A stretch of DNA of 64,000 bases. It comes from Desulfuromonas sp. AOP6. Its GTDB lineage: Bacteria; Desulfobacterota; Desulfuromonadia; Desulfuromonadales; SZUA-540. The translations under genes were made by a program, and so were the position numbers. Below are positions 8,863 through 37,245 of this stretch, piece after piece (the first letter of the stretch is position 1; each line of letters starts with the position of its first letter). A model generated the notes under the pieces. The model saw only the letters and a list, made by a program, of their open reading frames with translations, made no database searches and was not told where the DNA came from. Location of the stretch: contig NZ_AP022810.1 in assembly GCF_009731355.2 (NCBI RefSeq), positions 3,004,001 through 3,068,000 on the forward strand, read 5' to 3'.

Positions 8863-8958
8863 CCGACGCCCTTTTCCCTTGATCCCTTCCCCCCCGATCT
8901 GTTTTAATCCGTGGGCGGCATCCACCTCCGACGCCGACTCTGTTCCCTGGAGATCGCC

Positions 8959-9102
8959 TTGCCCGTTCTAGAAGATAAACTTTTTCAGCGCATCAAAAAA
9001 CTTGCCGGTAAAGCCATCGGCGAGTTCAACCTCATTGAAGAGGGGGACCGCATCCTCGTCGGCGTCTCCGGCGGCAAGTTGTGTCTGGTAGCTTATCTGT
9101 AA
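8959..9102 (+). pseudogene. ttcA: 5' fragment of backbone ttcA, cut in the PP-loop by the island
   Basis: TtcA is the ATP-dependent enzyme that thiolates cytidine 32 of tRNA. The likely start is TTG at 8959, with GGAG 6 bases upstream; GTG at 8911 is the alternative. The first 40 codons read normal family sequence up to GVSGGK. After AAG (9076-9078) the frame runs into island DNA and stops seven codons later (LCLVAYL). The missing part, starting at KDSYTLLH, is found at 37246. The fragment lacks the rest of the PP-loop and all Fe-S cysteines, so it cannot be active. Confidence 0.92.
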
Positions 9103-9310: not shown

Positions 9311-10564
9311 ATGGATGCGGTATTGAAACGTTACAAGTGGAACAAGAAGACCTTTTTCGCGATCGTCGATAAGTTTTCTTGCCCAGTTGATCCCTACGCC
9401 TCGGTCTACCTGAATACCCTCACTCATTTCAGACTGAGCACACAGTCACGATACGGAGGGGAACTATTGTTTGCGCTCAAATACTTCAATTCAAAAGGCA
9501 TTGACCTAACAGAGCGAGCGGTCTCTGGGAAGTTGCTCACCATGAGCGAGTACACCTCCTATTACGAGCACAGTGCAAAAAATGCTGGACACAGCAGTAA
9601 TGAGAAGGTCGTTCCACTGTTTGCTAATTCCGAAGACAAATCACTCCGAAACATTCTAGCGTCGAACACATTTCTAATTTCAAAAGTCTCCAATGGCACC
9701 CATCGGGGCCGTATCCATCGCCTTCGAATGTACCTGAACTGGTTGTTTGAACAGTTCCACGACCCGATTTCCGTTCGCCAGAACATTGAAGATCAACTCA
9801 ACAAGCTAACAATGAAGATGATTGCCGATGAGCAGTCCCTAAGATCTAAGGAGGATCAACAAACACGCCACCCAGAGGATGACGCAATACCGCCGGAAAT
9901 TTTTTGCAAGATGCTTGAGGTTATTCGTCCGATTTCCCCGAACAACCCATTCACCGAGCGCAACCGCCTGCGGAATTATTTAATCGTAAGCATTTTTCTC
10001 GACACGGGGATTCGGCGAGGCGCTCTGGCAAAACTAAAGTGTTCTGATCTGCGCTCTGACCAGTCTGGTTCGTCTCTTTGGATTTACCCGCACCATGACG
10101 ACTCTTCGGATCCAAGACACGAAAGACCAAACCAGAAGACCAAGTCTCATCTCGCGAACCTAAAACCAGAGCTCATGGATACGTTGCTTTTCTATATCGA
10201 GCATGTCCGGAATGAGGTACCTGGAGCACTTAATCACGACTTCATATTTGTCAGTGAAAGCAATTCCAGGGGAACGCAGGGGCAGCCGCTTGCCGCGAAA
10301 TCAATCAATGACATGTTCCTCACGCTTTCGAAAGTGCTGAATCATCGATTACACCCGCACCTCCTTCGACACATGTGGAACGACATATTCGATGACAAAG
10401 CCGATTATCAGAATTCCACATCAGGCTGGATTGAAGATGCCAGAAAGTATGCGATGGGCTGGTCGGCAAATTCAACGATGACGGACACCTATAACGATCG
10501 AAGAACGCACAAAAAAGTGCGCCAGATCATGCAGAAACATCAAGATATGGTGGATGCAAACTAA
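9311..10564 (+). CDS. Tyrosine recombinase, first of the trio
   Basis: A 417-residue site-specific recombinase of the phage integrase family. The SAM-like core-binding part covers roughly residues 25-160. The catalytic part shows Arg235 in DTGIRRGAL, the His-x-x-Arg-His box HPHLLRH (about 348-354), Trp384 in AMGWS and the nucleophile Tyr394 in TDTYNDRR, so the active site looks complete. The ATG at 9311 has no strong ribosome binding site. The stop overlaps the next start (TAATG). It is expected to act with the two following recombinases in moving the island. Confidence 0.88.
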   Translation: MDAVLKRYKWNKKTFFAIVDKFSCPVDPYASVYLNTLTHFRLSTQSRYGGELLFALKYFNSKGIDLTERAVSGKLLTMSEYTSYYEHSAKNAGHSSNEKVVPLFANSEDKSLRNILASNTFLISKVSNGTHRGRIHRLRMYLNWLFEQFHDPISVRQNIEDQLNKLTMKMIADEQSLRSKEDQQTRHPEDDAIPPEIFCKMLEVIRPISPNNPFTERNRLRNYLIVSIFLDTGIRRGALAKLKCSDLRSDQSGSSLWIYPHHDDSSDPRHERPNQKTKSHLANLKPELMDTLLFYIEHVRNEVPGALNHDFIFVSESNSRGTQGQPLAAKSINDMFLTLSKVLNHRLHPHLLRHMWNDIFDDKADYQNSTSGWIEDARKYAMGWSANSTMTDTYNDRRTHKKVRQIMQKHQDMVDAN

Positions 10565-12201
10565 TGATTAGCGTTCTGGCCGCCCAAGCAAGGGTTTATG
10601 AGCCACAAACACTGACTGCTAAAAGCGGTTTAACTGTCGATATAACGGGCAACGAGTGGCAGTTATTGCCAACTCCCGCTAAAGGATGGAAGTTTGATAT
10701 GAGCTGGATCTGGAATACCTCTATTCCAGATCTGGACAGGTCTCACATGTTGGCCGTATACTCGCACTACGCCAGAACAAAGGCAGCCAACACGACTACA
10801 ACGGTTGTCACCAATACGAAATCTTTAATGTTATTTGGAATCCCAGAGCTAGTTGCTCTACGCGCCAAATGGAGCGGTCTTCCAACACACCAAAAGAAGG
10901 GCCTCAATCAATTTTTTGGCACCTTGAGCAAGCTCGGTTACCGGGAGTATAAAGATCACCACGCCTTTACCAAGGCCAACCTAGACCCAGAACGTCCACA
11001 GATCTTCGATCCCCAAAAGGGTGCTCTTAGCGAACTGGAATTTGACAGTTTCTGTGCTTCACTGAACTTACGACTGCAGCTTTTTGACTGGCAGGTTGAG
11101 CGCCCGCTAGAGTTTTTTCAATCAAAATATTTGTTTGGCCCAATCAGGGCCGCCGTAAGCAACAAGTTATTAGCAGCGACGGTGCGCAGGCCTATTCAGC
11201 TATCGATGCTCAAGTGGAGCGATGTGCTTCCCGCTGGCCGTCGGTTTGACGATCCACGCATCGATCCATCCCATGAAGTAGGAAACCTTGGAATCGACCA
11301 GCTTCAGATAAGGTTTTTCCATGCAAAAGGTAACGGAATATCTTGGAGGACGACACCAGAAAAGCATCCTATCCCTCTAAATGCTAAGAACTCTGAGATC
11401 CTTACCAATTACAAGCGACTCTACATGCATGGCGTAAGGAGTTTACTGAAAAAAAACGGATGCAGCATTTCGCATCAGGAGTTGAGCAGTACGGTTTCCG
11501 ACATGCCAGTTTTCATCTTCGTGGACTTCTTCTCGCTGGAGATTGCATCACAAAACGACCTTAGTGCACTTTTCAACGACAAATCTCGTGCCCTGCATTT
11601 CGGCGAATCCACAATAACCATGAGCACACGACACGTCAGCGTTGAATCAAGCAGAGTCGATTGTTGCACAGTGACATCAAACAGAATCCGTCATACGGTC
11701 CTGACGCGGGGCGCTCAAGCGGGCTTAAGCGCAATAACGCTGGCAAAGATAACAGGCGTTACAGTGCCTGCGGCGAGACACTACATTAACCTTGATTACA
11801 ATTCGCGCCTGATGATTGACGATCTGTACGTCGGCTCTGATTTTCTGGCGGCTGTTTTCAGCAAACCGCTGGAACAGGTTTCGAACGATGAGATCGAAGT
11901 TCTCGACCATGAATTCAATGCGGTCGGCGGCTTGCGTGACAAACAAGGCTGCACTCCATGCTCGGCCACTACGGGACGTCCTATTGGCTGCTATGGCTGC
12001 AACAACTTCCGACCGATCCTGGAAGCCAACCACGGCAAAGTGCTGGAATTCGCAGTGCTGAAGCTTGAAGCGAATAGCAAAAATCTGCTTTCGCCTGAAG
12101 AAAAGCTCAGTGTCGAAAAGCTTGGCAAGCAGGTCAAATGGATTAAGCTGACCATTAACGTCTGCAACCAGGTACTGGAGACTCGGCGTGGCATTGAATA
12201 A
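10564..12201 (+). CDS. Tyrosine recombinase-like protein, second of the trio
   Basis: A 545-residue protein. Integrase-like signatures are an arginine in TVRRPIQLSMLKW near residue 208, then NRIRHTVLTRGAQAGLS and ARHYINLDY about 30 residues later, which supply Arg-His and the presumed His-x-Tyr catalytic end. The C-terminal part has a cysteine cluster (GCTPCSATTGRPIGCYGC), probably a metal site. It starts with the ATG that overlaps the previous stop by one base and overlaps the next gene by 14 bases. Homology to integrases is more distant than in the first gene. Family assignment rests on motif order and context. Confidence 0.78.
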   Translation: MISVLAAQARVYEPQTLTAKSGLTVDITGNEWQLLPTPAKGWKFDMSWIWNTSIPDLDRSHMLAVYSHYARTKAANTTTTVVTNTKSLMLFGIPELVALRAKWSGLPTHQKKGLNQFFGTLSKLGYREYKDHHAFTKANLDPERPQIFDPQKGALSELEFDSFCASLNLRLQLFDWQVERPLEFFQSKYLFGPIRAAVSNKLLAATVRRPIQLSMLKWSDVLPAGRRFDDPRIDPSHEVGNLGIDQLQIRFFHAKGNGISWRTTPEKHPIPLNAKNSEILTNYKRLYMHGVRSLLKKNGCSISHQELSSTVSDMPVFIFVDFFSLEIASQNDLSALFNDKSRALHFGESTITMSTRHVSVESSRVDCCTVTSNRIRHTVLTRGAQAGLSAITLAKITGVTVPAARHYINLDYNSRLMIDDLYVGSDFLAAVFSKPLEQVSNDEIEVLDHEFNAVGGLRDKQGCTPCSATTGRPIGCYGCNNFRPILEANHGKVLEFAVLKLEANSKNLLSPEEKLSVEKLGKQVKWIKLTINVCNQVLETRRGIE

Positions 12202-14515
12202 GTACCTCGATCGTACCGAATCGCTGATTAAGCAATACAAGGAAGTCGCCACATTCGAACAGTTCCAGACCCCCACAGGGGACTACGCAACATTTGATGA
12301 TCTTATCTGGTTCTATGTCGACCCGAACACAGGCCATAAAACTCGTATACTGACAGGACGACACGGCACTAAAGGACGCGGTCCTGCCGGTTCAGGCGCT
12401 GATAATGTACTGCCAAAACCATACGGTGACCTTGTCAAGGTCTTCATTATCGAATGCTTTAATCTCTCGATCTCTAATAGAACAAAAACCACTTGGGTTG
12501 GCTATGCAAGAAAATTACTTTCTTCCATGCACGGCCACCTCTACCAGCAAACCCCCTCCTCCATCATTGACTGCATCCACGGCTGCCGCGTGTATTTTGT
12601 CATACCGTTCATCAATTTCTGTGAAAAGCATGGGTTAGTTCCAAAGAATTCTCAGCGGCTTCGGTCTTTTATCAAAGATGCCCGCGATCGAACTGGTCAA
12701 GAGGCGGACTCACAAAGAAATCAAAAAATGGCTAGTGAAGACACCATCAAAGCCATTGGGGCCGTCTATGCCAAAACACTAAACAATCTCATCAATGAAC
12801 GCCCAGAACCTGGCGACTTTCGTGATGCGCTTGCCTCCTTCGTGGCACTACTTTGCTTAGCGGCCCCGAACCGAGCAAGTGCTGAAGTGCCACTTCTTCC
12901 AAACCAGAAACTCATGTCCTACTCCGAAGGTGATCGGCCCAAAGTTTTTTACATGGACTGGCCTGGCAGCAAAGGCTTTCAAGACAACCGCAACCATATA
13001 CTTCGAGACCTCGCACCCCTGGTTGAAAAGGGTCTCGACTACTTCTCCGAAGCCTGTCAGCCTGGCCGTATCCTTGCTCGTTACTACATAAACCCAGACC
13101 AGAAGCTTTGCACGCTGCTTGGCGACTTCCCTATCGAATCTGAAAGAAAAGCACGTCTTGAACTCGACAAAAAACCGCATCTTTTTCAGTTGGGTTACGC
13201 GCTAGGCTTTTACGGAATTGATGACGAGGTTTACGTCTATTCAGAAGATAGTAGCTACAAGAAGAGACATTGCAGGCTCAAAACGAGCGATAACTTGTCC
13301 AAGCGCACCTCTTGTTGGCGACCAAAAAAAATCGCAGATCTTCAGACGGAAGATTTGATCTCCTCCAATGCCGTGAAGAATCCAGCTCGGCCTGGCTTGT
13401 ACAAGCTACTGAATTGTCATTTTCAGGGCAAATATGCAAAGAAGTTTGATCCAGATAACAACCGCCTGATTACCGTTGAGAAAATCGAGGGTTTATTGTT
13501 TGATCTCCACAGAAATTCCTTCCCAAGCTTTCCATTTGGCTTTTCGACCGGCGGTCAAACCCAAACAAAAATGGACGGCGCGCTTTTCTGTGTTTTAGGC
13601 TACCAATACTACGGCCAAGGAGCCATTAGAAAGGGGGGTGGAACACCAGGCGGATCGAACTTCTATACGCTTCTGACCCCCGCAAGCCTAGCTCAAAACG
13701 CTGCTAGGGATATCGGTCGTAGGGGTTTGCTTTTCACACGTCGTGGTTTTTCCTCACGTCTTTTTTTGAATTACCATCAACTTCGTCATTACACCAATAC
13801 CCTGGCTGACAGAAGCGGCATACCCAACGAAATCATTACGGCCTGGTCTGGACGAAAAAGTTGCGAACAGACGTACGAGTACATCCACACGAGTCACGCT
13901 GAGCGCACTTCCAGAGTTAAAGAAGTTCAGGCAACGGCAAACGAGACCACACAACCAATTCGCTGGGTTTCAAGAGACGACATCGAAAAAGAACTTAACC
14001 TGCCTGCAAGTGCGACATCTACCGGTGTTTGCGTCCAGAATCTTATCACGAGCCCTTGCGACTACCTCAACGACTTTATTTCAAGCTGTTTCCTATGCCC
14101 TAGCTCATGCCATGTGGCTGGAGATCAGAATGCAATTGATGTCCTTGACCGGGACCATCAGTTTCAATGCCGACGGCTGGAAACCATTGAGAAGGACAAG
14201 CGCTTGACCGTTTCGATGACAATGCAGGACTGGTTCATCACACACACGCGGAACACAGGCATATTGTCACAACTTATTCAATTGATGAAAGAGACACCCA
14301 AAGAAACAGTCATTACCTTCAACTTGAAGCTTGCGCAATTCAACCTTGTGAATGTTCGAACAAAGCAGATCGAACATGTCGCGGCGAAACTCTCTAATAC
14401 CGAACATGCCCTCAGTAAGGCTCTGGAGCGACACAAAAAGTCTAAGAATCAACCAGAACCCAACAGAGAACTGACAACATTATTGGCCACATACAACCTC
14501 ACGGAGATCGGTTAG
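12188..14515 (+). CDS. Large tyrosine recombinase-like protein, third of the trio
   Basis: A 775-residue protein starting at GTG with GGAG 7 bases upstream. The recombinase signature lies near residues 530-570: NYHQLRHYTNTLADRSG (His-x-x-Arg-His), then AWSGRKSCEQTYEYIHTSH with Trp and the likely nucleophile Tyr. A cysteine-rich segment near 615-645 (CDYLNDFISSCFLCPSSC) may bind zinc. The long N-terminal half is not recognised. Its stop codon abuts the ATG of the next gene, so all recombinases are probably made from one message. Three dissimilar recombinases in a row recall trio-type mobile elements such as Tn554-like TnpA/TnpB/TnpC systems. Confidence 0.78.
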   Translation: MALNKYLDRTESLIKQYKEVATFEQFQTPTGDYATFDDLIWFYVDPNTGHKTRILTGRHGTKGRGPAGSGADNVLPKPYGDLVKVFIIECFNLSISNRTKTTWVGYARKLLSSMHGHLYQQTPSSIIDCIHGCRVYFVIPFINFCEKHGLVPKNSQRLRSFIKDARDRTGQEADSQRNQKMASEDTIKAIGAVYAKTLNNLINERPEPGDFRDALASFVALLCLAAPNRASAEVPLLPNQKLMSYSEGDRPKVFYMDWPGSKGFQDNRNHILRDLAPLVEKGLDYFSEACQPGRILARYYINPDQKLCTLLGDFPIESERKARLELDKKPHLFQLGYALGFYGIDDEVYVYSEDSSYKKRHCRLKTSDNLSKRTSCWRPKKIADLQTEDLISSNAVKNPARPGLYKLLNCHFQGKYAKKFDPDNNRLITVEKIEGLLFDLHRNSFPSFPFGFSTGGQTQTKMDGALFCVLGYQYYGQGAIRKGGGTPGGSNFYTLLTPASLAQNAARDIGRRGLLFTRRGFSSRLFLNYHQLRHYTNTLADRSGIPNEIITAWSGRKSCEQTYEYIHTSHAERTSRVKEVQATANETTQPIRWVSRDDIEKELNLPASATSTGVCVQNLITSPCDYLNDFISSCFLCPSSCHVAGDQNAIDVLDRDHQFQCRRLETIEKDKRLTVSMTMQDWFITHTRNTGILSQLIQLMKETPKETVITFNLKLAQFNLVNVRTKQIEHVAAKLSNTEHALSKALERHKKSKNQPEPNRELTTLLATYNLTEIG

Positions 14516-14938
14516 ATGGCTTCACCCAGTATCACGACACAAGACCAACGTCGAATCGAACGCCTGATTGCCAATTGGAAAGGGAAGTTGAGTTGGAAGC
14601 TGCTTACGAAAGCAGTTGAACTACAGCTTGGAATCAAGACCACACGTCAAACACTGTGCACATACACAGGCATTTACAACAAGTACAAAAAACAAAAGGC
14701 CGACCTTCGTGGAGTTACACCAGAGGTCACTTCGCGCATCACACGCGCAGATGTCGCCGCTCAAGAGCGTATTGCTCGGCTTGAAAGAGACGTCAGAGAC
14801 CTCGAAGAAAAGAATGCTCAGCAGCTACGCATGATTGACAGGATGCTCGCCAACGCATCATCGATCCCGAATTTAGATCTTAGGGAGCTAGTAAAGGAAC
14901 GGCCGGAAGAATTAAAAAAAGGACCCAGGCATGAGTAA
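14516..14938 (+). CDS. Small coiled-coil accessory protein of the recombinase operon
   Basis: A 140-residue charged protein. The N-terminal ~60 residues look like a small helical DNA-binding domain (RRIERLIANWKGKLSWKLL). Residues about 85-125 form a heptad-like coiled coil (RIARLERDVRDLEEKN). Small proteins of this kind follow the recombinases in Tn554-like and other trio elements, where TnpC-type partners influence orientation or efficiency; that role here is an inference. GGAG precedes the ATG. It overlaps the following ttcA by 8 bases. Confidence 0.65.
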   Translation: MASPSITTQDQRRIERLIANWKGKLSWKLLTKAVELQLGIKTTRQTLCTYTGIYNKYKKQKADLRGVTPEVTSRITRADVAAQERIARLERDVRDLEEKNAQQLRMIDRMLANASSIPNLDLRELVKERPEELKKGPRHE

Positions 14939-15710
14939 AGCCAGTGAAAAGAGCTTAAACCTCATCTATCGGAATGTCGGCAGGGCAGTAGGCGACTATC
15001 AGATGATCGAGGATGGCGACAAAATTCTGGTTGGGATAAGCGGGGGGAAGGACTCCTGGACGCTGTTTCACACCCTGCTACGGTTGCAGCGACGTGCGCC
15101 GATCCGCTATGAACTGATCCCAGTTACAATCCATCCGGGCTTTGGATCGTTTGATTGTGACCCTATCGCCAAGGAAGTGGCACGCCACGGGCTGTCTCTT
15201 CACATTGAGACCACACAAGGGGCGGAAATTATCGAGCAGCACCTGCGTCCCGGAAGTTCCTACTGTGCCTTCTGCGCCCGTTTAAGGCGCGGCGCCCTCT
15301 ATGGGGTGGCTGACAGACTACAATGCAACAAAGTGGCGCTGGGGCACCATTTGGATGACGCGATCGAAACCCTGCTACTCAATCAGTTCTACTCTGGCAC
15401 CCTAGCCGCTATGAGTGCCAAAATGCTCGCCGACAATGGACGTCATACAGTCATCCGACCGCTAATCTATGTTGAAGAGAAATGGATTAAGGAATGGGCA
15501 TCAAGCGTGATGCGTCCCCTGGTTGGGTGCGGTTGTCCGCAAGAGGCCCTTGACGACCAAAAGCGGCAAAAGATAAAGGCACTGCTCAGCCAGCTGCAGG
15601 ACGACATTCCGCACATCAAACAAAGCCTGCTCAATGCCCTGCGCAACGTTCAGCCTCGCCACCTGCTGGATGGCAACCTCATCAGTGGTTCAGGAAAGAA
15701 AAAAACCTAG
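14931..15710 (+). CDS. ttcA: Complete TtcA homologue carried by the island (presumed rescue copy)
   Basis: A 259-residue tRNA-cytidine(32) 2-sulfurtransferase homologue. PP-loop SGGKDS at 37-42; Fe-S cysteines CAFC at 112-115 and a third in GCGCP (200/202); ALGHHLDDAIETLLLNQFY at about 136-154. It is collinear with, and clearly related to, the two halves of the backbone gene, but not identical, so it is a homologue and not a duplication made on insertion. It begins inside the end of the preceding gene (ATGA-type overlap), which makes it the fifth gene of the recombinase operon. Around the PP-loop its DNA differs from the target at several codon third positions, which could reduce self-insertion. 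A rescue role is inferred. Confidence 0.9.
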   Translation: MSKASEKSLNLIYRNVGRAVGDYQMIEDGDKILVGISGGKDSWTLFHTLLRLQRRAPIRYELIPVTIHPGFGSFDCDPIAKEVARHGLSLHIETTQGAEIIEQHLRPGSSYCAFCARLRRGALYGVADRLQCNKVALGHHLDDAIETLLLNQFYSGTLAAMSAKMLADNGRHTVIRPLIYVEEKWIKEWASSVMRPLVGCGCPQEALDDQKRQKIKALLSQLQDDIPHIKQSLLNALRNVQPRHLLDGNLISGSGKKKT

Positions 15711-16065
15711 GGAGCAACCAAGATCGCCCTTGGCCACCACATGGATGACATCGTTGAGACGATGTTTCTGAACATGTTCTTTCAGACCAAGTTGTCAGCC
15801 ATGCCGCCAAAGCTCCTCAGTGACGACAAGTGCAATGTTGCTATCCGGCCATTGACTTACTGCCGGGGGAAAGGACATCGCACAGGTTATACGCGACCGG
15901 GCGTAGCCCATCATCCTGAAAAACCTATGCGGCTCTCAAGAAGATCTGAAGCGACAAGCTGTAAAGGCAATGCTTAGTGAGTGGGACAAAGACCAATCGG
16001 ACCGTGTAGCTAACATCTTCAGAAGCCTGCAAAACCTGAAGCCATCGCAACTTGCCGATACGGCC
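15711..16065 (+). pseudogene. ttcA: Decayed 3' fragment of a gammaproteobacterial-type ttcA
   Basis: Immediately after the TAG of the intact island copy the sequence reads [18 protein letters not shown] and then [16 protein letters not shown], the style of the longer TtcA known from Gammaproteobacteria. After TYC the frame shifts near 15866, giving [11 protein letters not shown], a stop, then [18 protein letters not shown] and [15 protein letters not shown], ending near SQLADT. The fragment lacks the N-terminal half, including the PP-loop and CxxC. With one frameshift and one stop it cannot be functional. It differs from both other ttcA genes here and is best read as a fossil of an earlier host or an earlier carried copy. 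Confidence 0.85.
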
Positions 16066-18634: not shown

Positions 18635-19825
18635 CTACATAGAAAAAGAGGAAGATTCGGACAGCTTCCTCAATGCCATATCAATGAGCTTGATGGCTTC
18701 ATCGATTTGTTGATCAGAGGTCTCAAAACCGAGGCTCAATCGAACTGCAGAATCTGCCTCCTCCTTATTCAATCCAATAGCTCTTAGCACGTGGGAAGGC
18801 TCTGGAATTCCCGACGTACATGCCGAGCCGCTAGAGGCTGCTAAATATGGCTGCAATACTCCCAGGATATCTTGCCCGTTAACTCCCTTGAAGCCGATAG
18901 ATATATTCCCAGGATGACGCTTTTGACAATCAGCTCCATAGAGTTTGGCTGACCATGGTAGGGCTAAGAGCATAGCGACAAATCTGTCCCTGCGACTACG
19001 TAAGTTATCGCGCTTTAAGGCTGCTTGAGGCGAGCCGAGATATTCAGCAGCAGCGCCCAAACCTACACATAATGGCGTAGGCAATGTGCCAGGTCGAAGC
19101 CCATTTTGTTGGTTGCCGCCGTAAATCAACGGTTCGATTTGATCTTGTAGATCTCGGCAGATATATAAAGCGCCAATCCCTTTGGGACCGTACATCTTGT
19201 GCCCAGACAGGCTAAGCATATCCACATGTTTTACAAAATTATTCATATTAATCCCCATCGGCGCTTGCGAAGCATCGCAGTGAAATACAGCTTTATGGGG
19301 TCTAATAATCTTAGATAGGGTATCGATATTCTGTATAGTGCCGATTTCATTGTTGACGGCCATAATTGAAACAAGAAGAACGTCCTCTTCGAGTAGCCTT
19401 TCCATTTCTGTAGCAACAATATATCCGTTTCTGTCAACAGGGATAGTTTCTACAGTAAAACCATATTGTTGTTCCAAAACAGGTCCAACTGATAGCACAG
19501 ATTTGTGCTCTATCTCGCTCATAAGAATTCGTTTTCGGGACGAGCCTTTGAGAGCGGAACCTTTCGCCAGGCCCAAAAGTGCAAGATTATTCGATTCTGT
19601 TGCCCCAGATGTAAAAATAATTTCGTCGCTATCTGCACCAATGAAATTGGCGATTTGCTGTGCTGCTTTTTCTATAGCGGCAGAAGATTTATAGCCAAGC
19701 ACATGATCTGCGGAATGTGGATTGGCAAAAGAATCGCTGAAATATGGCAGCATTTCATTTAAAATTTCATCAGCTACCGGTGTTGTAGCTTGATAATCAA
19801 AATATAAAATTTCGGAATTATTCAT
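18635..19825 (-). CDS. sspA: Cysteine desulfurase of the phosphorothioation system
   Basis: PLP-dependent NifS/IscS-type enzyme of 396 residues that takes sulfur from L-cysteine. The PLP lysine is Lys210 (LSLSGHKMYGPKG), the Asp block is FHCDASQAPMG (181-191), and the persulfide-forming Cys336 lies in SSGSACTSG. In Ssp and Dnd systems this protein hands sulfur to the PP-loop enzyme (here SspD). It is divergent from sspB and shares a 155-base control region with it, as expected for sspA next to sspBCD. Without its neighbours it could be a housekeeping IscS; context decides. Confidence 0.9.
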   Translation of the reverse strand: MNNSEILYFDYQATTPVADEILNEMLPYFSDSFANPHSADHVLGYKSSAAIEKAAQQIANFIGADSDEIIFTSGATESNNLALLGLAKGSALKGSSRKRILMSEIEHKSVLSVGPVLEQQYGFTVETIPVDRNGYIVATEMERLLEEDVLLVSIMAVNNEIGTIQNIDTLSKIIRPHKAVFHCDASQAPMGINMNNFVKHVDMLSLSGHKMYGPKGIGALYICRDLQDQIEPLIYGGNQQNGLRPGTLPTPLCVGLGAAAEYLGSPQAALKRDNLRSRRDRFVAMLLALPWSAKLYGADCQKRHPGNISIGFKGVNGQDILGVLQPYLAASSGSACTSGIPEPSHVLRAIGLNKEEADSAVRLSLGFETSDQQIDEAIKLIDMALRKLSESSSFSM

Positions 19826-19980: not shown

Positions 19981-20928
19981 ATGGCACATGGACCACTTTA
20001 CCAACAAGACTACAAACCTCACTTTTCAGGTCATGAGACCTTTCCATTAAGGTATGGATGGCTAAAAAAATGCTATGACCGTGTATCTGAAACTGAGCAA
20101 GAATCGAATAACAAGCTCCTGTGTTGGGGGGATGACGCCATTGCTCGTTTTGGTGTGGGTAAAAACATGGTGTCATCTATGCGTCATTGGGCGGTGGTTG
20201 CGGGCATCATTGACGAGCCCTCAAACACTAACATGGTGAAGTCAACATCGCTCGGACAACTGCTATTCGGAGAGCATGGTGTTGATCCTTATTTAGAGAA
20301 TCAAAATTCGCTATGGCTAATCCATTGGAAGCTAGCAACGCAAAAGAAAAAAACCACATGGTATTGGGCTTTTAGCTACTACTCCGCAGTTACATTTGAT
20401 CGGGATAAGCTGATTAAGAGATTACAGCGTGATTGGCCTAATGTCGCACAGGCGACAATTAAAAACGACGTCGGGTGTTTTATTCGTACATACGCCGCAC
20501 AACCATCATCTTCAAAATCCGGACGAGATGATTCCCTTGAATCTCCACTTACAGAACTTGGATTAATTAAGCCGGTGTCGAAGCGTGATGAGTTCCGATT
20601 TGTTCGCGGCCAAAAAACAACGTTAGGAGAAGGGGCGTTTGTTTATGCCCTGCTTGAATTCTGGAGAGAATTTTCTCCAGCATCATCAACGCTTTCTTTT
20701 GAAGCGATCGCATATGAGCCAGGGTCACCGGGACGTGTTTTTTTGCTTGATGAAAACGATGTCGCCGACCGCCTATCTGACATTGCCAACGTCACCAACA
20801 ATGCGCTTCGATGGTCGGAAACTGCTGGATTAAAACAAGTTGTTCGTAGCTCGAACTTTGATTTCAGCAATGCGCTTGAGTTTGCATTAGAGGACTATAA
20901 ACGTTCAAGTGATAGGGAGTCATCATAG
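19981..20928 (+). CDS. sspB: SspB, DUF4007 nickase component of the phosphorothioation system
   Basis: A 315-residue protein opening with the DUF4007 signature FSGHETFPLRYGWLKK at residues 15-30. SspB is the DUF4007 protein reported to nick DNA so that sulfur can be placed in one strand. The ATG at 19981 follows AGGAGAT by 10 bases. The stop codon overlaps the GTG start of sspC by one base. The family call is strong; nicking activity is known for the family, not shown here. Confidence 0.88.
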   Translation: MAHGPLYQQDYKPHFSGHETFPLRYGWLKKCYDRVSETEQESNNKLLCWGDDAIARFGVGKNMVSSMRHWAVVAGIIDEPSNTNMVKSTSLGQLLFGEHGVDPYLENQNSLWLIHWKLATQKKKTTWYWAFSYYSAVTFDRDKLIKRLQRDWPNVAQATIKNDVGCFIRTYAAQPSSSKSGRDDSLESPLTELGLIKPVSKRDEFRFVRGQKTTLGEGAFVYALLEFWREFSPASSTLSFEAIAYEPGSPGRVFLLDENDVADRLSDIANVTNNALRWSETAGLKQVVRSSNFDFSNALEFALEDYKRSSDRESS

Positions 20929-23900
20929 TGGCGTTAGTTGATCAAGTACGAATTGCAAGGCGTTTCCAAAAATCCATAAGGATTGATACGGATTTGGGTG
21001 ACAGGAATGCCCTTGATGGCTTTATCTGCCCGCAATCTTATGCCGATATCCTCTTGTCGATGGCTCGGCATGTCTCCGAAAGCGGGCAAGGTGCATTTAC
21101 GTGGACCGGCCCCTATGGTAGCGGTAAATCGAGTTTGGCGATTGCGTTAAGTGCCTTGCTGAATCGTAATGAAAATCTACGAAAGGAAGCAGCTAAGGTC
21201 TTCAGCCAAGATCTTACAAATTCAATATGGAAGGCTCTTCCAACCGGTTCAAAAGGTTGGCGCGTACTTCCGGTTGTCGGGAGACGAGATAATCCCGTTG
21301 ATGTTCTAGGGGAAACGTTAAAAGAGTACGGGTACGTTTCACGCCGCCCCAGAGGCGGGTGGACCGAAGAGCAGGTTGTAAACTGCTTGATAGATGTCGC
21401 CATGAGCAAACCTAATACCCATGGCGGTCTGATGCTATTCGTTGACGAAATGGGCAAGTTCTTGGAATCTGCCGCACAGGATGGCTCGGACATATATATC
21501 TTTCAACAGCTTGCAGAGGCCGCATCACGTAGCAATGGCCGATTTTTATTTATAGGTGTTCTACACCAAGCATTTGGTGAATATGCTCACCGGCTATCAC
21601 ATGAGCTGCGTGATGAATGGGCTAAAATCCAAGGACGATTTGTTGATTTATCCGTCAACACCATTGGCGAAGAACAAATTGATCTAATTTCTCGTGCGAT
21701 TGAGTGTTGTCGTCAGGCATCTCCAAAATACAAAGACCTCTCTAGAACTGTTGCGAAAATTGTACGTAAAGACCGTTTACAGAACGACGACCGCTTAGCA
21801 AATATGCTGGCAGATTGTTGGCCTTTGCATCCTGTTGTCGCTTGCCTTCTTGGTCCGATTTCACGCCGCAGATTTGGGCAAAACCAGCGTAGCATCTTTG
21901 GCTTTCTGAATTCAGCAGAACCTCATGGTTTTCAGGATTATTTACACACGGCGGATGAAACGAACCTCTATACGCCAGCAAAACTTTGGGATTATTTACG
22001 AGCCAATCTGGAACCGTCCATTCTCGCTTCACCTGATGGCCATCGTTGGGCACTTGCGGCAGAGGCATTAGAACGGTGCGAAGCCCTAGGTGCTGACGGG
22101 TTTCAGGTTGATCTTTTAAAAACCATAGCAGTTGTCGATCTCTTTAAAGAGCGATCTGGTCTCGTTCCGAGTTTTGATTTAATCCAAACATGCTTTCTGG
22201 ATGTGAGTGCAAAAGACCTTAAAGAGGCACTAACAACTCTCGATAAATGGTCCCTGACAATCTTCAAGAAGTTTCAAGATGCGCACGCCATTTTTGCCGG
22301 TAGCGACTTCAACATAGACCAAGCAGTTAGTATGGCACTGGATGAGATTGATGAGCTCGATTTTGCAGCCTTAAAGTCCTTGGCCGGCTTGCAGCCCATT
22401 CTGGCAAAGCGCCACTACCATGAAACCGGCGCTATGCGTTGGTTTGATGTGAATATCACGCCTGCCAAAGATGTGATGGCTGTGGCGTCTCGCTTTAGAC
22501 CTAAAAACGGGGTAATTGGTGAATTCTTGCTTGTTGTTCCGACCGAGGGGGAAGAGGAAGAGCCCGTTAAAACGCTTTGCCGGGAAGCGGCCAAGTTAAG
22601 TGACCAATGGGATATCGTGGCAGGTTACTCACCACGAGCTTGGTCAGTAGTGATGCTGGCACGTGAACTTCTGGCACTTGATAAGGTTAACAATGATCAT
22701 CCTGAGCTGGCGGGTGATCCGGTTGCAAGACGCGAGGTTACGGCAAGGCTCGCAGATTTGCAGGCCCAGTTGGAGACCGAACTCACAAAATCGCTCGACA
22801 TGGCCGAATGGTGCCGTAAGCATCACTCTACAAAACGATATCGTCAATCTGATCTGAACAGTCTTGCCTCTGAGATTGCTGAAAGACGGTATGACCAATG
22901 TCCAAAGCTGCATAATGAGCTTTTAAACCGACAAAAGCCATCCAGCAGTGCTATCGCAGGCCAAAATGCTCTCTTGAGGCACATGATTACAAGAGATGGT
23001 GAGCCACGCTTGGGCATTGACGGCTATCCAGCTGAAGGCGGTCTTTACGCCTCTCTGCTGGAAGCCACAGGGCTTTATTCAGAAACGAAAGACGGCTGTC
23101 GCTTCGTAGCCCCTTCCGATAACGAAACTGACACATACAGGCTTTTCCCGGCATGGAATGCAGCGATCCAGCATATAAAGAAAAACAAAAAACGCTCGGT
23201 TGCCGTATCAGAGCTTTATAACCTTTGGGCGGAACAGCCATACGGCATCAAAGATGGATTGATGCCGGTTTTAGCGGTTGCTTTTATTCTCACTCAACGA
23301 GAAAATCTGGCTATCTACCGGGAAGGTATATTCCGTGCGCGGCTTGATGACGTCGATGTTGAGTATCTGGCGAAAGACGCCGAGACAATTCAACTTCGTT
23401 GGATGGACCTGAATAAAATTTCGCGGCGCATGCTTTCTGATATGGCAGATGTTGTGCGCGATCTCGATGAAAAAAACGAACTCATTCATCTTGAGCCCAT
23501 CGATGTTGCCCGTGGTCTCGTAGCGATCTATGAGAAACTTCCGAACTGGACCAAACGGACAATGCGCCTGTCTGCAAAGGCTATTCAAGTGCGCGACATT
23601 TTTAAACGCGCCCGTGATCCAAACAAGTTTTTGTTTGATGATATCCCTGCGTTGGTAAACTCAAAGAATCCCGACATCTCAGATAAAGACGATATCCAGA
23701 ATATTGTTTCGATAGTCAAAGAAGGTTTGCAGGAGCTGGTACAGGCATATCCTCTTATGGTTCATAGGCTAAGGGATATGCTTCTTGCGGAGCTACAAGT
23801 TCCTAATCTTTCACGCCAGTCTCTCTTGGAGCTTCGGGAACGGGCAGAGAATGTGAAAGAGCTTGCAGGAGATTTCCGCTTAGACGCCTTTGTCGGACGT

Positions 23901-24326
23901 CTGGCTCAATTTGAAAGCGATGATGAAAGCTTCGAGGGTATTGCAAGCCTTGCGGCAAACAAGCCGCCGAGAAATTGGGTTGATCCTGATATGGATCGAG
24001 CATCTATTGAGCTTGCTGACATGGCCCAGAAGTTTCTCAGAGCCGAAACCTTTACACGGATCAAGGGCCGCCCGGAGAAGCGCCAAGCAATGGCCGTACT
24101 AGTTGGGATGGAAGGTAGACCAGCACCGCTTTTGGAAGAGTTCGATGTGGTCGACTCTGATAGGGAAGCAATCAACGATATTATTGAACGGGTTTCAAAG
24201 GCGCTAGATACCACTGACATCAAAAACCGAAACATCATTCTTGCAGCATTGGCAGAGTTGAGCGCCCGGTATATGCAAGCTCCCGAGATGGAAAAACGAA
24301 AATCAGGGCACGGAAAGGTCGCATAG
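20928..24326 (+). CDS. sspC: SspC, large P-loop ATPase of the phosphorothioation system
   Basis: A 1132-residue ATPase with Walker A GPYGSGKS at 61-68 and Walker B LMLFVDEMGKF at 168-178, in an N-terminal AAA-like domain. The remaining ~800 residues are helical and unrecognised. In Ssp systems SspC is the ATPase needed with SspB and SspD for modification. It starts at GTG, overlapping the sspB stop, and ends three bases before sspD, so the three are one operon. There are no membrane segments. Confidence 0.88.
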   Translation: MALVDQVRIARRFQKSIRIDTDLGDRNALDGFICPQSYADILLSMARHVSESGQGAFTWTGPYGSGKSSLAIALSALLNRNENLRKEAAKVFSQDLTNSIWKALPTGSKGWRVLPVVGRRDNPVDVLGETLKEYGYVSRRPRGGWTEEQVVNCLIDVAMSKPNTHGGLMLFVDEMGKFLESAAQDGSDIYIFQQLAEAASRSNGRFLFIGVLHQAFGEYAHRLSHELRDEWAKIQGRFVDLSVNTIGEEQIDLISRAIECCRQASPKYKDLSRTVAKIVRKDRLQNDDRLANMLADCWPLHPVVACLLGPISRRRFGQNQRSIFGFLNSAEPHGFQDYLHTADETNLYTPAKLWDYLRANLEPSILASPDGHRWALAAEALERCEALGADGFQVDLLKTIAVVDLFKERSGLVPSFDLIQTCFLDVSAKDLKEALTTLDKWSLTIFKKFQDAHAIFAGSDFNIDQAVSMALDEIDELDFAALKSLAGLQPILAKRHYHETGAMRWFDVNITPAKDVMAVASRFRPKNGVIGEFLLVVPTEGEEEEPVKTLCREAAKLSDQWDIVAGYSPRAWSVVMLARELLALDKVNNDHPELAGDPVARREVTARLADLQAQLETELTKSLDMAEWCRKHHSTKRYRQSDLNSLASEIAERRYDQCPKLHNELLNRQKPSSSAIAGQNALLRHMITRDGEPRLGIDGYPAEGGLYASLLEATGLYSETKDGCRFVAPSDNETDTYRLFPAWNAAIQHIKKNKKRSVAVSELYNLWAEQPYGIKDGLMPVLAVAFILTQRENLAIYREGIFRARLDDVDVEYLAKDAETIQLRWMDLNKISRRMLSDMADVVRDLDEKNELIHLEPIDVARGLVAIYEKLPNWTKRTMRLSAKAIQVRDIFKRARDPNKFLFDDIPALVNSKNPDISDKDDIQNIVSIVKEGLQELVQAYPLMVHRLRDMLLAELQVPNLSRQSLLELRERAENVKELAGDFRLDAFVGRLAQFESDDESFEGIASLAANKPPRNWVDPDMDRASIELADMAQKFLRAETFTRIKGRPEKRQAMAVLVGMEGRPAPLLEEFDVVDSDREAINDIIERVSKALDTTDIKNRNIILAALAELSARYMQAPEMEKRKSGHGKVA

Positions 24327-24329
24327 GAT

Positions 24330-25166
24330 ATGGCTGGAAATGAAATACACGTTCTGGGACTTTCCGGCGGTCGAGATAGTGCTGCGCTTGCTGTATACAT
24401 GCGCCAGCATCATCCAGATCTTGATATTGAATATTTCTTCACCGATACGGGCAAAGAGCTTCCTGAGGTTTACGAATACCTAGGAAGGCTTGAAGGCTTC
24501 TTAGGTCAACGTATACTCAAGCTTAACCCCGACCGTGATTTTGATTTCTGGTTAAAGCAGTACAATGATTTTTTACCCTCTGCGCAGACGAGATGGTGTA
24601 CACGCCAGTTGAAGTTGAGACCTTTTGAGCAATGGGTGCGTCCCTTGCTCGCAGATGGTACGAGGATATATAGTTATGTTGCTATTCGTGGTGACGAGGA
24701 ATACCGTGAAGGCTATACTTCAAAAGATGATAACCTAATAGTAAAACTACCATTTAAAGAGGTCGGGATCGATAAAGCAGGCGTTTTGGATATTTTGGAA
24801 GGAGCCGGTCTGGGGCTTCCTAGTTACTATTCATGGCGCACCCGTAGCGGCTGCACCTTTTGTTTTTTTCAACAAAAGATTGAGTGGGTACGACTGATGG
24901 AGCGCCATCCTGATGCGTTTAAAGAAGCTAAAGCTTATGAAAAAAATGCCGTCGACCATGGATCTCCTTTTACCTGGAGCCAAGGCGAGTCTTTGGAAGA
25001 GTTGTCTAAGCCAGAACGAGTCAAGCAAATCAAAGAAGACCACGAGCAGCGTTTAGCCAGACAGAAAAACAAGTCACAACCTAATCCTTTACGTTCAGAC
25101 AGCGAGCCTTTGGATATTGATGATCTTTATGGCAAAGCAAAAGTGTGTCTTGCTTGTCATAAATGA
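24330..25166 (+). CDS. sspD: SspD, DndC-like PP-loop sulfurtransferase
   Basis: A 278-residue ATP pyrophosphatase of the PAPS-reductase/DndC type that activates the DNA backbone for sulfur insertion. PP-loop SGGRDS at 12-17; cysteines at 90 (RWCTRQL), 175 and 178 (GCTFCFF) and 273/276 (CLACHK) are placed to bind an iron-sulfur cluster. It begins three bases after the sspC stop. Its own stop codon overlaps the ATG of the next gene (ATGA), which ties that unusual gene to the modification operon. Confidence 0.88.
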   Translation: MAGNEIHVLGLSGGRDSAALAVYMRQHHPDLDIEYFFTDTGKELPEVYEYLGRLEGFLGQRILKLNPDRDFDFWLKQYNDFLPSAQTRWCTRQLKLRPFEQWVRPLLADGTRIYSYVAIRGDEEYREGYTSKDDNLIVKLPFKEVGIDKAGVLDILEGAGLGLPSYYSWRTRSGCTFCFFQQKIEWVRLMERHPDAFKEAKAYEKNAVDHGSPFTWSQGESLEELSKPERVKQIKEDHEQRLARQKNKSQPNPLRSDSEPLDIDDLYGKAKVCLACHK

Positions 25167-26290
25167 TTTTAAAAGCGCAAATTCAAAGCCAGTGGATGCA
25201 AATGAACCCTGAAAATATAATTACGGCAATAGAAAAGTTTTTCTTTGAGATCATTGGTCAACTGCTGCCAGGTTTTTTATTTCTGGTCGGGATTTACTTT
25301 GTCCTTCCTAAAGAGTTCGTCGAGAATTTCACGCCTTCAAATAGCCTAGGATATTGGAGCCTCGTAGGTGCATCATATGCTGTAGGTTCCGCCCTCACAG
25401 CTCTTGGATGTTACATTTTTATACCGATATATCTTAAGATATTAACGTGTCCTGTTATTTTGTGGACGCTTCCAAAAAGAATAAAGGATATACTTCTGTC
25501 AAATGAGGAGATAGATGAAAAACTTCAAAAAAGTGCGGCGTTCAAATTTATTAAAGCTCAGCTTCCTGAAGAGGCATCGCTACAATCGCTAAGGAATGTG
25601 GCGATGTCATCTATTAGTTCATCTGACAAGGAAACCACGATCAGATTTATGTTTCTCAGTCTTTTGAGCCAAGGCATAGCAACAAGCATTCTCCTCCTGG
25701 CGATTATTCAAGCTGTTGTTTGGTTGCCGAGTTATGTCGGTTTTGGGGAAGGTGTCGGTTGCACAGCAGAGCTTTTTCTGGTTTCGCTAGTTGTTGCATT
25801 TCCGTTCATATTAAGAGAGCGAGAGTTTTTTGATCGGGCGCGCCGTCTTCCGATAGACTGTTATTTCGCAACTCTAAAACCGGATATTTCTTCCAATAAA
25901 GTGGGCAAGCCAGTTAAAACTGTATATCTGTCAGGAGGCCACTATTCAGGTTGGCAAGTGAAAGTGATTCAGGCAGCCAAGAATTTCGAATATAAGGACC
26001 CAAGCAAAAACGGACTCTCTGACCCCAGACTTTATACAGAATGGGATTTAGAGGCCATCAAGAGCAGTGATATAATATTTGCATATTTTGAAGATACAAA
26101 CCCTGGGGGGTTTGGTCTCTCTTTGGAGATTGGTTACGCCGCAGCTCTAGGAAAACATATACTATTCGTTGATGAAAAGTCTCTCCATTCGCCTGAGGTC
26201 GGGCGGTACCTTAAAATTATACAAGAAACCTCAAATGTAGTCTTTGACTCGTTGGACGAAGGGATCGACTATTTAAATTCACTGTCCTAA
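25163..26290 (+). CDS. Membrane protein with C-terminal nucleoside-deoxyribosyltransferase-like domain
   Basis: A 375-residue protein. Likely membrane segments lie at about 29-49, 63-90, 162-188 and 199-217. Residues 252-375 resemble nucleoside 2-deoxyribosyltransferases: a first strand KTVYLSGGHYSGWQ, DLEAIKSSDIIFAYF (297-309 part), then GFGLSLEIGYAAALGK with Glu322 in the place of the family's catalytic glutamate. Such domains split or remake N-glycosidic bonds of nucleotides. The first ATG overlaps the sspD stop; Met12 (25196) and Met14 (25202) are alternative starts. It ends tail-to-tail on sspH with a 4-base overlap. It is not a standard Ssp component; I infer a membrane-bound effector or nucleotide-processing accessory. 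Confidence 0.72.
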   Translation: MILKAQIQSQWMQMNPENIITAIEKFFFEIIGQLLPGFLFLVGIYFVLPKEFVENFTPSNSLGYWSLVGASYAVGSALTALGCYIFIPIYLKILTCPVILWTLPKRIKDILLSNEEIDEKLQKSAAFKFIKAQLPEEASLQSLRNVAMSSISSSDKETTIRFMFLSLLSQGIATSILLLAIIQAVVWLPSYVGFGEGVGCTAELFLVSLVVAFPFILREREFFDRARRLPIDCYFATLKPDISSNKVGKPVKTVYLSGGHYSGWQVKVIQAAKNFEYKDPSKNGLSDPRLYTEWDLEAIKSSDIIFAYFEDTNPGGFGLSLEIGYAAALGKHILFVDEKSLHSPEVGRYLKIIQETSNVVFDSLDEGIDYLNSLS

Positions 26291-29200
26291 TTAGTTGAAG
26301 TTCTCTTTAACCATGCCCGCCTAATGATGTCCGCTAGCTTTTCTATCTCGTCTTCTGAAGTAAATGGCACTTGAGCCAAAATAACTCTCCCTTCGCCCGA
26401 TAGCTTTGCAGCAAGATGTCCGCGACCGAGTAGTCTCTCAGCACCGGGCTCATCGAGAACAAGTATAGAGTTCTTTTTATCTGCAACCTTAAGAACTAGC
26501 CGGTTTGTTAAGTTGGCACGAAGTTGCATCGGCAATGCGTCTTTATCCGGTCGCTGTGTAATAAGTACGAGGTTAATTCCTGCTGCCCGTGCCTTGACGC
26601 CCAAACGGCTTGCATTTAAATCAACAGCGTCTCTGTATTCATTGATCATCATCCAGTCCGCTAACTCATCGTGGAACAACCAAATTCGGGGAAGTTGCTC
26701 GGATGGGAGAACTTTGCGGTTGTAGTTGTCTAGCTTGGAAACACCTGCTTCTGCAAGCAGGCGGTTTCTTCTCTCCATTTCGGCCACTAGCTCTTCGAGG
26801 GCGTGGATAGCTTCGTCTTGCTCGGTAATGAGGTCACCGTCGAGATGAGGCATGTTGCGTAGCCAGGGAAAATCAATCCCGGCTTTGGGGTCAATCATGC
26901 GGATGCGCGCTTTTTCAGGAGAATTTGTTGCGCAAATATCCAGAAGCAGCGACTGTACCAGAACACCCTTGCCGCTCCCTGTTTCACCGGCAATCAAGGT
27001 GTGAGGTCCGTGTGGTTGGTTTCCTCCAAACTCGTTGCCGACATTCAGATACAGAATTTCCCCGTCTGCCTCTTTCGCACCAAGCAGCAAGCTGGTATTG
27101 GACTCCGGTGCTGTTGAGGGAAGTTGTCGTCTTCGCCACAAATCCTGCAACCGCAGAATTGCCCGATGTGGTCGTTTGACCATTATGATAATTTCCATCG
27201 GAGCAGCCAGTACGTTGATGACATCAACGGCGTGCGAGGTCAGAAGTTCTTGGCGCTTCTTCTCAACCTTGGGAACTGTGAGGTCATCTGAGCCCCTGAA
27301 GCGAACAAGGGCAGCGTTTGGCGTGAGCCTCGCACCAATGAGCTCAGCAGTCATTTCATACCCGCGCAATGCCCTTTGCAAAGCTTTGACGGTATTGTCA
27401 AGCCAGGCTTTGGTGTCTTCGTCGTCTTCCTCAGAAGCAGAACCGTTATTGACCCATTCGGCAATCTGTCGCGACGGCCACATTTCTAACAATTCATCTG
27501 GAATAGTGGACTTGGTTTCTTCTGCCGCGGAGTCCGGTTGAGGTGAAGGGAAATCTTCAGTCGGAGTAGGGACAACAGTATCCGGTTCTATTTTGACTTT
27601 TGATTCATCTGCAAGATCACTCTCTACTGGCTCGGGAGCAGGGGGATGAGATTGAGTGGTGGCTACAGAGTCAGTCGTTGCTTCAAGGGGCTCTGAAATT
27701 GGTCCCGTGGAAACAAGAGCGTCACTCCATGTGCCGCTTTCGGCTTCCGGTTGCTCTTCTGGCACTTTGCCTTTCTTGGCAAATTTACGGAATGCCCTGG
27801 CAACACTGGCTTTGTCAAACACTTGTTGGGTACAGTGTGGCATACCTTTCAGAGGCGTGGCATCACCTCCATCAACGTACTCATCATTGTCGTGAATAAA
27901 GACATGTGAAAACCCTGCTAGCTGTATCGATATCTTGTCCTGCCTGACTTCATCTGACCATTTGTGTAAGTCCCAGCCGTTCATCGGCGCAGGATCAAAC
28001 GGCTCCATACCTTCAATCATGAAATCACCTATACGATTAAGCCAGATTTCACGATCAATTCGTTTGTGATGGGGATCAATTGCTCGCCCCACACGAGCAA
28101 CGGTTTCTTCGAGTTGTTTGGCTGACTTCTTAGCCTGTGTTCTGTATCCGCGAGAACTTACAAATTTTGCTTCCGATATCGCCAGTTTGAGAACAGGCTT
28201 GCCATCAACAATACGAGGGGCGATGGCCATGATATCGGCAATTTGCTCTTCCTGTTGTCCGAACCAGGACGCAAAATCATCCAGAAAATACCAGCCTATG
28301 GGCAAGCTTGAATCGCCAAGTCCACTACGAATCTTCTCCATGGATAGCACGATGCCGAGCAACTCATTTGCGTAATGACCATATCGGGCAGCACGCATGA
28401 CCACTTGACCGGACAGCGTATTGGCTTGGTCAATCAGTTGGTCGATGACAGATTCATCTTCTGAGGTGATTGCCGGATCGAGCCTGTCCAAGCGTTCCTT
28501 GAGAAGCACACGCAAGAGTTTGGGTTTAGATGTTGTTGAGACAACAATATTGCGATTTACTTGCCGGTCTCGTATATGGCGAATAACGCGAACGCCATTG
28601 TTGCTCAGGAGGCGGCGGTCAACCAGTTCATCGAAGTTCACAACCCATTCACCAATCTTGTGTGTTTGGGTAAATACGCTGCCTATATCGCCATCTCGGA
28701 AATTAACCTCTCGGGCAGGGATAACATTTCCCGGCGGTGCGTTATCTCCCTTAAGGAATCCATGAATGAGGTTGAGATAACTCTGGCCGGATTGTGGTTG
28801 CACTGGACAAGCTAAATACACTGATGTTGCAGTATCCGCCAAACCAATCGGACGACGACGAGACCAACGTGCCGGAACATGAGTTAGTAGCTCAGGATGC
28901 CTGTCGCCAGGAGTTCTTTTCCAAACAAGCTGAGCGTTCCGCGCTACAACATCCTGAAGTGCCACCAGATCGACAGCACGGTCATTGTCGTCATCAGGGA
29001 TTTGGGCCGTGTCAAGAAAACCTACGCGGAGCCTGGAAAGGAAATTCCTGGCGGCTTCACTGGCCATGACCGAACCGGAATCTTCGTTAACAGTGACATT
29101 CTGTTGCTCATAAATCCGTCTAATCCGCTTGGGTTCTGAATGTGTGAGTAAGAGGTCGCATTGCAGTTGATTCTCTTGTTCAACCTTGCTGGAAAGCTCT

Positions 29201-36585: not shown

Positions 36586-37245
36586 AAAAATGATGGGAGA
36601 TTAGTCGATGTAGGGTTTGATGATTCTTCACTGTCTGCCGTGAGACGTCAACCCAGCTTAACAATCGCTGAAGATGGGTAGATTCGACTCGTAAGTGAAG
36701 CATACCCTTGGAACAAATGCTCAATTAATTCTTTTCGCTGTGCTATGTTCCTACACGAGAGGGATAAAGAGCTAGTCTTTAGGTATGAGCAGAGAGCACC
36801 TTATTGTTTTTGGTTAAGTAAAACATTGAAGCTTTTATATGTCTTTGAAGAATCGCGATAGAAGCTGGAGAACCAAGAAAAGCCTCATTTCACGCCATAA
36901 ACTATCTGGCAATAGGTGGTGTCCACTTTTGCCAGCGGCAGCCATGCTCAGTAACAAAAAAAGAACCTAGGGTGTCGCGAATCACACAGGACGCGGCGCG
37001 GGGAAGAGATAACACGCCGAAATCTACCCCTGATTTTTTGTAAAGGTTATTGTATTTAAAACGACCCTACCGTGACTGAAAAATAGCACTTGATGACATT
37101 CCTTTACACTATTGAAACTTTCCGTAAAACATTTACTTCGCGTTGGCCTGTTTACGGAACACTGAAAACCCTATTTCCTTGGGCTTTTGTCAATCAAGCC
37201 ACGCACTTTAGTCTCGCATTTTCTGAAACCTACTGGATAGAAGGG
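36586..37245. other. Right-end stretch of the island without a recognisable gene
   Basis: I find no convincing coding sequence. From 37090 an open frame of about 50 codons runs into the ttcA 3' half, but these codons have no family similarity and appear accidental. The stretch includes the island's right end and presumably the recombinase binding sites. Confidence 0.55.

Follow-up and report, generated by a model that had tools for sequence, protein, structure and literature searches.

The window analysed here (a stretch of 64,000 nucleotides from Desulfuromonas sp. AOP6, contig NZ_AP022810.1) contains a genomic island inserted in the host gene ttcA, together with a second ttcA encoded by the island itself. 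The sequences compared here indicate that this element would very probably be a GInt that splits ttcA at its PP-loop codons and carries a complete ttcA taking over the function of the broken gene.

When the window's genome was searched with the island TtcA, a host-type ttcA was retrieved in two pieces, the 5' piece stopping at the Ser-Gly-Gly-Lys codons (9078) and the 3' piece restarting with Gly-Lys-Asp-Ser. The island occupies ~9079-37242 (about 28.2 kb), bounded by the cores GGCAAG and GGGAAG, and its GC content of 0.47 (0.437 in its last 300 nt) is lower than that of the host flanks (0.57-0.59). G496, a genome of the same genus, has an uninterrupted ttcA, the 3' part of which shares 93% identity with the split 3' part of the window. 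The features of the borders and of the five-gene block are given below, L006 and L007 being two relatives of the element described further on.

8959..9078, + strand: host ttcA 5' fragment, TTG start, ending ...VGVSGGK; N-terminus like that of an intact same-genus ttcA (L088)
9073..9078, + strand: left attachment core GGCAAG, the Gly-Lys of SGGKDS; at the same place in L006 and L007
9079..9310: GInt left end, with weak promoter-like matches at 9151 and 9243
9311..10564, + strand: ginA, tyrosine recombinase, 417 amino acids (PF00589, Pfam Phage_integrase, E 3.8e-10)
10564..12201, + strand: ginB, large recombinase, 545 amino acids (homologues; NF041502, E 1.4e-20, under cut-off)
12188..14515, + strand: ginC, recombinase-like, 775 amino acids, GTG start (relatives; no family match)
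14516..14938, + strand: ginD, small helper, 140 amino acids (position and homologues in L006 and L007)
14931..15710, + strand: replacement ttcA, complete, 259 amino acids, a chimera (NF007972, alignment and tree)
36935..37242: GInt right end, GC 0.44, resembling the corresponding ends of L006 and L007
37243..37248, + strand: right attachment core GGGAAG
37243..37905, + strand: host ttcA 3' part (GKDS...), host-type ttcA sequence with its frame still open

The overlaps of 1, 14, 0 (abutting) and 8 bases that the original prediction had read between the five same-strand genes agree exactly with the open reading frame coordinates. The corresponding spacing is 4, 14, 0 and 4 in L006 and likewise 4, 14, 0 and 4 in L007, and because a comparably tight spacing is kept in both relatives, chance is unlikely. 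The fifth gene does encode, as had been claimed, a complete TtcA, with 280.8 bits against NF007972 (cut-off 272) and an intact SGGKDS at residues 37-42. It also has CAFC at residues 112-115 and an additional Cys pair, and these cysteines we take to be the ligands of an Fe-S cluster. However, the description of the first three genes as tyrosine recombinases has to be narrowed, since ginA matches Pfam Phage_integrase, whereas the 545- and 775-residue proteins do not. GinB reaches 73.5 bits against NF041502, whose cut-off is 350, and GinC matches no family among the Pfam and NCBIfam models; the names of these two proteins follow from their position and size, which are those of GinB and GinC of GInts. 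The ginD product has no Pfam or NCBIfam family over cut-off. Where ginD and ttcA join, no terminator-like site was found on the + strand, in a scan rising barely above its shuffled background, and this, along with the gene overlaps, suggests a co-transcribed ginD-ttcA operon. Rfam gave no match over 8900-16500, and the solved structures related to TtcA are distant only (TtuA-type thiolases and TilS, best E 4e-10).

In the mechanism proposed, the DNA encoding the conserved PP-loop SGGKDS would be the attachment site, and the Gin proteins, as the GInt literature would lead one to expect, would carry out the recombination. Integration would sever the host ttcA after its Gly-Lys codons, destroying the gene, and the island ttcA, which overlaps the end of ginD, would replace the TtcA function, that is, tRNA thiolation (s2C32) in the host. 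Excision could rejoin the host ttcA. Complementation by the island TtcA would be part of this scheme, as would the linked expression and the near-zero cost of integration put forward in the original prediction.

A scan of genome contigs with GinC found the two relatives, L006 and L007, with a GinC 78-80% identical. Each of them interrupts ttcA at these same codons, with the 3' pieces of the host gene identified and a TtcA in fifth place, and their island TtcA proteins score 408.9 and 416.9 bits, respectively, against NF007972 (cut-off 272). The synonymous divergence (dS) between L006 and L007 is 0.105 for ginA, 0.426 for ginB, 0.335 for ginC and 0.135 for ginD. For the island ttcA, dS is 0.218, and the ratio of nonsynonymous to synonymous divergence (dN/dS) of 0.22 corresponds to purifying selection, whereas the 3' part of the host ttcA shows a dS of 1.25, the 3' halves of the host genes being still open and conserved. 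Since the dS of the island ttcA falls within the range of the gin genes and far under that of the host ttcA, the five-gene block moved as a unit, being transferred jointly between hosts much more diverged than the elements. Thus, the idea of a ttcA built into the element is borne out by its fifth place in all three ttcA elements and by its divergence, which is like that of the gin genes, but neither its place nor its presence is fixed. Also, in the metagenome-assembled genome of L006, two host contigs (L104 and L056) end exactly at the two junctions, each overlapping the island contig by 55 nt, an assembly pattern that suggests the coexistence of empty and filled ttcA sites in the population.

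The sole other strong homologue of GinB and GinC in the window's genome lies at 1.5 Mb, in an element that breaks a different gene.

L017 6094-13323 (genome about 1.506-1.529 Mb): recJ GInt, interrupting the gene at its DHH codons

The RecJ to the left of its ginA stops inside the DHH motif and resumes 22.9 kb on. An intact RecJ of 563 amino acids stands fifth in this element, 110 nt behind ginD, with 439 bits against TIGR00644 (cut-off 397) and 580 of 900 against the stricter NF008290, and is 39% identical to the 3' piece of the host protein and 32% to the 5' piece. In G496, recJ is a single open frame, and in the other same-genus genome (78% complete) no recJ was found. The genes following RecJ in the recJ GInt resemble metal efflux genes, by reading only.

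The element of the window is assigned to the GInts, as a candidate member, by its architecture, its size and the ssb site shared by its homologues. According to the available portion of PMC5385486, GInts combine a terminal ginABCD operon with cargo that varies and an opposite end richer in AT, and they recombine with high site specificity through a staggered 6-nt crossover, all four gin genes being required for excision and integration; in the printed descriptions accessible to us, GinC is recombinase-like, with part of the catalytic motif absent. In the window, as in L006, L007 and L017, three recombinase or recombinase-like genes and a small fourth one occupy one end, and a short AT-rich far end lies behind the cargo (GC 0.437, and 0.367 in the recJ GInt). 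The left/right 6-nt cores are GGCAAG/GGGAAG in the window, GGCAAG/GGCAAG in L007, GGCAAA/GGTGCC in L006 and GGCAAG/GGCAAG in a Pseudomonas element described below. The flanking direct repeats of GInts are imperfect and 10-17 nt long in the portion of PMC5385486 at hand, and repeats of that length were not found at these elements. Homologues of gin stand directly behind ssb at eight plasmid loci (one of them with an intervening group II intron gene) and on one chromosome. In this respect they are alike to the published GInts, for which the accessible text also gives ssb as a site; 9 of the 29 loci compared below stand directly behind ssb. However, the published sites are gene ends, a gene start or intergenic, as far as that text goes, whereas catalytic codons are cut here. 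Moreover, insertion was thought by Bardaji et al. 2017 probably not to inactivate the target fully (PMC5385486, in the available portion), whereas a matched spare gene is carried here; ttcA and recJ are both absent in a term search of PMC5385486.

Two other recombinase systems were compared. The Tn554 system (TnpA, TnpB, TnpC) is similar in combining recombinases with a small helper, a 6-bp footprint and site specificity, but it has two recombinases and, according to the accessible parts of PMC10214605 and PMC5385486, no counterpart of the third (Tfp/GinC). The window has three recombinase or recombinase-like genes, and the element is not placed in Tn554. For the second system, no Gmt model is among the NCBIfam matches of the window proteins up to an E value of 0.1, and a Photobacterium GinA homologue gave one sub-threshold match to GmtY (24.6 of 340 bits). 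This second system, the Gamma-mobile-trio (GMT), consists of GmtY, GmtZ and GmtX, and the element is not placed there either.

A more distant relative is found on a Pseudomonas aeruginosa plasmid, with a GinC 40-42% identical and GGCAAG at both ends. This GInt is inserted in the SGGK codons of a gene other than ttcA. The 3' DNA of this target is present in 113 plasmid records, and among 12 listed the annotation is PAPS reductase family in 11 and hypothetical in 1. The ttcA of the element is its last gene, 166 nt short of the right end, and encodes a complete TtcA (440 bits, cut-off 272) that is 72-73% identical to the island TtcA of L006 and L007. A second Pseudomonas plasmid (L109 20007-21070) has the same right junction and a TtcA 97% identical, and perhaps holds a remnant of an element with other cargo; GinC was not found in this record, in a search without a positive control. 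In the tree, the TtcA proteins of both plasmids group with the island copies of L006 and L007 in a single clade (support 96/84), with a Shewanella copy next to it and 31 host rows apart (28 from the window's order plus the three split host genes). The spare ttcA is therefore an old companion of the element lineage, variable in its position within the element. A TtcA-like gene is present in 49 plasmid records, among which the GInt plasmid, the 97% plasmid and that of Shewanella baltica were examined; RecJ is present in 120 records. Near the Shewanella baltica ttcA no gin operon was found in 28.8 kb, the neighbours being chromosome-type genes.

How general the pattern is was evaluated at 29 gin loci, by looking for matches between the region left of ginA and the 4.5 kb that follow ginD; left junctions were viewed at 18 loci. 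Four loci had been excluded before the count because their left end is missing or their contig is short and doubtful (L038, L052, L059 and L065). At 4 of the 29 loci, the gene following ginD is a match to the one broken (three ttcA and one recJ, E 1e-4 to 4e-19), the upstream sequence of L006 being just 289 bases. The 25 others comprise nine behind ssb, a place where an insertion probably breaks nothing, one at the Pseudomonas PP-loop, one in umuC and 14 without an assigned target. The expectation that ttcA always follows these recombinases is therefore refuted, unmatched loci being the very outcome that the original prediction had named as counting against it. In the umuC case, a Providencia plasmid GInt (L020 5865-6233) cuts the gene in codons reading ...VYSID, where SIDE is presumably the catalytic motif of UmuC; this element is shortened by a Tn3 transposon. 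Negatives are weak for L037, L039, L061, L068, L069 and L070, where the gin positions are estimated, and for L020, cut by the transposon. Three further matches with E below 1e-3 were discarded: that of L040 (5e-23) is a repeat found ~1 kb before ginA and >4 kb past ginD, and not a junction gene, and those of L039 (2e-4, 20 residues) and L061 (4e-4, 45 residues at 36%) are by eye no gene pairs. The ttcA and recJ GInts thus carry the gene they break, and the narrower idea that a GInt interrupting the middle of a gene tends to bring that gene along, which the unmatched loci do not refute, has four clear cases.

Several observations weigh against a GInt that pays for the gene it splits. One is that the Pseudomonas GInt carries a TtcA yet broke a gene of the PAPS reductase family. 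The pattern comes from four elements in three genomes plus this far relative. Also, no close GinC was found elsewhere in 395 genomes of the phylum, 136 of the order and 76 of the family (overlapping sets), the matches being weak only (G408, G518 and G578, E 1e-5 to 4e-5). In the same 395 genomes, NF041502 gave weak matches only, in nine genomes besides the window's (best E 6.8e-9), and viral contigs and a phage collection contained no GinC relatives. Finally, ttcA and recJ are dispensable in Escherichia coli, so the need for a spare is unproved.

It could be argued that the ttcA behind ginD is ordinary cargo, acquired once from a host, the match with the broken gene being a coincidence or hitch-hiking. 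The 25 unmatched loci would fit this explanation, as would the location of ttcA at the opposite end of the Pseudomonas element and the diversity of GInt cargo in the available text of PMC5385486. However, two different genes, ttcA and recJ, each match the broken gene within one genome, the island TtcA copies (L006, L007 and both Pseudomonas plasmids) share a clade that excludes the 31 host rows, and purifying selection acts between L006 and L007 (dN/dS 0.22), which makes ordinary cargo improbable. Less probable still is that the spare acts as a lock-in device, a damaging excision leaving the cell dependent on the island copy. In that case the host ttcA 3' halves would hardly be expected to be still open and conserved as they are, and ttcA is a non-essential gene in E. 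coli. The unlikeness of the L006 right core (GGTGCC) to its left core (GGCAAA) makes faulty rejoining conceivable, and GInt excision can leave altered attB sites, according to the portion of PMC5385486 available. As for a split ttcA that is active as two pieces or through an alternative start at the right end, with a redundant island copy, an open frame of 271 amino acids does run from a TTG at 37090 into the 3' part, but its PP-loop reads IEGKDS and not SGGKDS and its N-terminal part is unlike TtcA in the alignment, so this explanation is barely credible.

With functional replacement by the island copy retained as the preferred reading, the island TtcA of the window has a composite history. 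Over residues 1-42 it shares 79% identity with the island copies of L006 and L007 and 44% with the TtcA of its own host, whereas residues 43-259 are 80% identical to the TtcA of G435, 61% to that of its own host and 34-36% to the L006 and L007 island proteins. G435 belongs to a different family (f114) of the same order and is the best match among the 136 order genomes. In the tree, the 3' portion of the window TtcA falls inside a group of 12 hosts of the family of G435, with support of 100/100. The switch from island type to G435 type is located inside the PP-loop, and a trace of the earlier gene is left.

15711..15978, + strand: decayed 3' part of a former island-type ttcA, right behind the stop, resembling the island TtcA of L006 and L007

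The likeliest history, as far as these comparisons go, is that the element formerly resided in a relative of G435 and took the 3' two-thirds of its ttcA, the frame being kept. For the chimera, an origin by site-specific recombination was considered, the breakpoint being in the PP-loop core and the internal core being identical to the right core (GGGAAG). This origin is doubtful, however, because the cargo would be lost in a simple recombination with the right end and because the old 3' part is still present behind the stop; a recombination assisted at the 5' side by the short stretch of PP-loop sequence shared there, and closed by an illegitimate joint at the 3' side, would be equally likely. 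An AlphaFold model of the chimeric TtcA (four sequences) had a mean predicted local distance difference test score (pLDDT) of 36.4 and was not used. Also rejected was a recoding of the PP-loop as immunity against self-insertion: four to five of the six codons differ from those of the host with the amino acids unchanged, but codons agree at only 28-33% of the identical residues in the remaining 3' part, so there is no excess of recoding. The first Ser codon is AGC in all three islands and TCN in 28 hosts of the order (29 loci compared, one without the gene), but this split is not independent evidence, since the three islands are one lineage. Within the core region of recJ, GACCACCAC is not recoded.

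Islands that replace a single gene are known. The RME island of Vibrio cholerae splits recA and brings a divergent recA reported to be functional, with circular excision (PMC4405046, available portion). It differs in that its recA lies opposite the integrase end, in its phage integrase and XerS-like gene, in its 9-bp inverted repeats and in its one target, and ginABCD are not mentioned in the accessible text of that article. In Pseudomonas putida KT2440, a 65-kb island splits the essential tmk and supplies a replacing activity, which was shown experimentally, although the replacement is a phage-type dNMP kinase and not a copy of tmk (PMC10653934, accessible part). The Rac prophage of E. coli likewise attaches in ttcA, but there four N-terminal residues of TtcA are changed, and a full spare copy is not mentioned in the available portion of PMC4632033. 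By sequence, the islands described here, in ttcA and in recJ, likewise each contain an intact homologue of the gene that they split. The literature searched, including two papers on GInts searched by term, gave no description of a GInt sited in ttcA or recJ or of one with a matched spare, a scope that leaves outside subscription papers and some bioRxiv preprints. GInts and single gene-replacing islands (recA, tmk) are known, and the ttcA and recJ GInts with a matched spare appear to be a new variant.

More tentatively, and with somewhat less than even confidence, there may be a GInt subclass that targets the DNA of catalytic motifs (SGGKDS of PP-loop enzymes, DHH of RecJ, SIDE of UmuC) and pays with a spare re-tailored to each new host by recombination at the attachment core, chimeric enzymes like the window's TtcA being the outcome. 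Such DNA would suit as a target because it is near-invariant through selection on the protein. This suggests that a mobile element may exploit widely shared active-site codons without harm to the host by bringing a spare part. Moreover, two targets in one genome, each with its spare, make a testable rule, unlike the single recA and tmk islands, and would offer a route for the horizontal replacement or chimerism of housekeeping enzymes.

The cargo of the window's island includes the following genes, which according to the PADLOC models make up a phosphorothioate-type defence system (SspABCD and SspFGH).

18635..19825, - strand: SspA/DndA-type cysteine desulfurase (PADLOC SspA, E 4e-125)
19981..25166, + strand: SspB, SspC and SspD (PADLOC)
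26287..35005, - strand: SspH, SspG and SspF (PADLOC)

An additional gene at 25163-26290, within the Ssp region, has no PADLOC match, and the same holds for a gene of 455 amino acids on the minus strand (16792-18159), located after the ttcA remnant and before the Ssp genes. A small open reading frame at 36240-36525, close to the island's right border, is HicB-like, a label given from reading alone.

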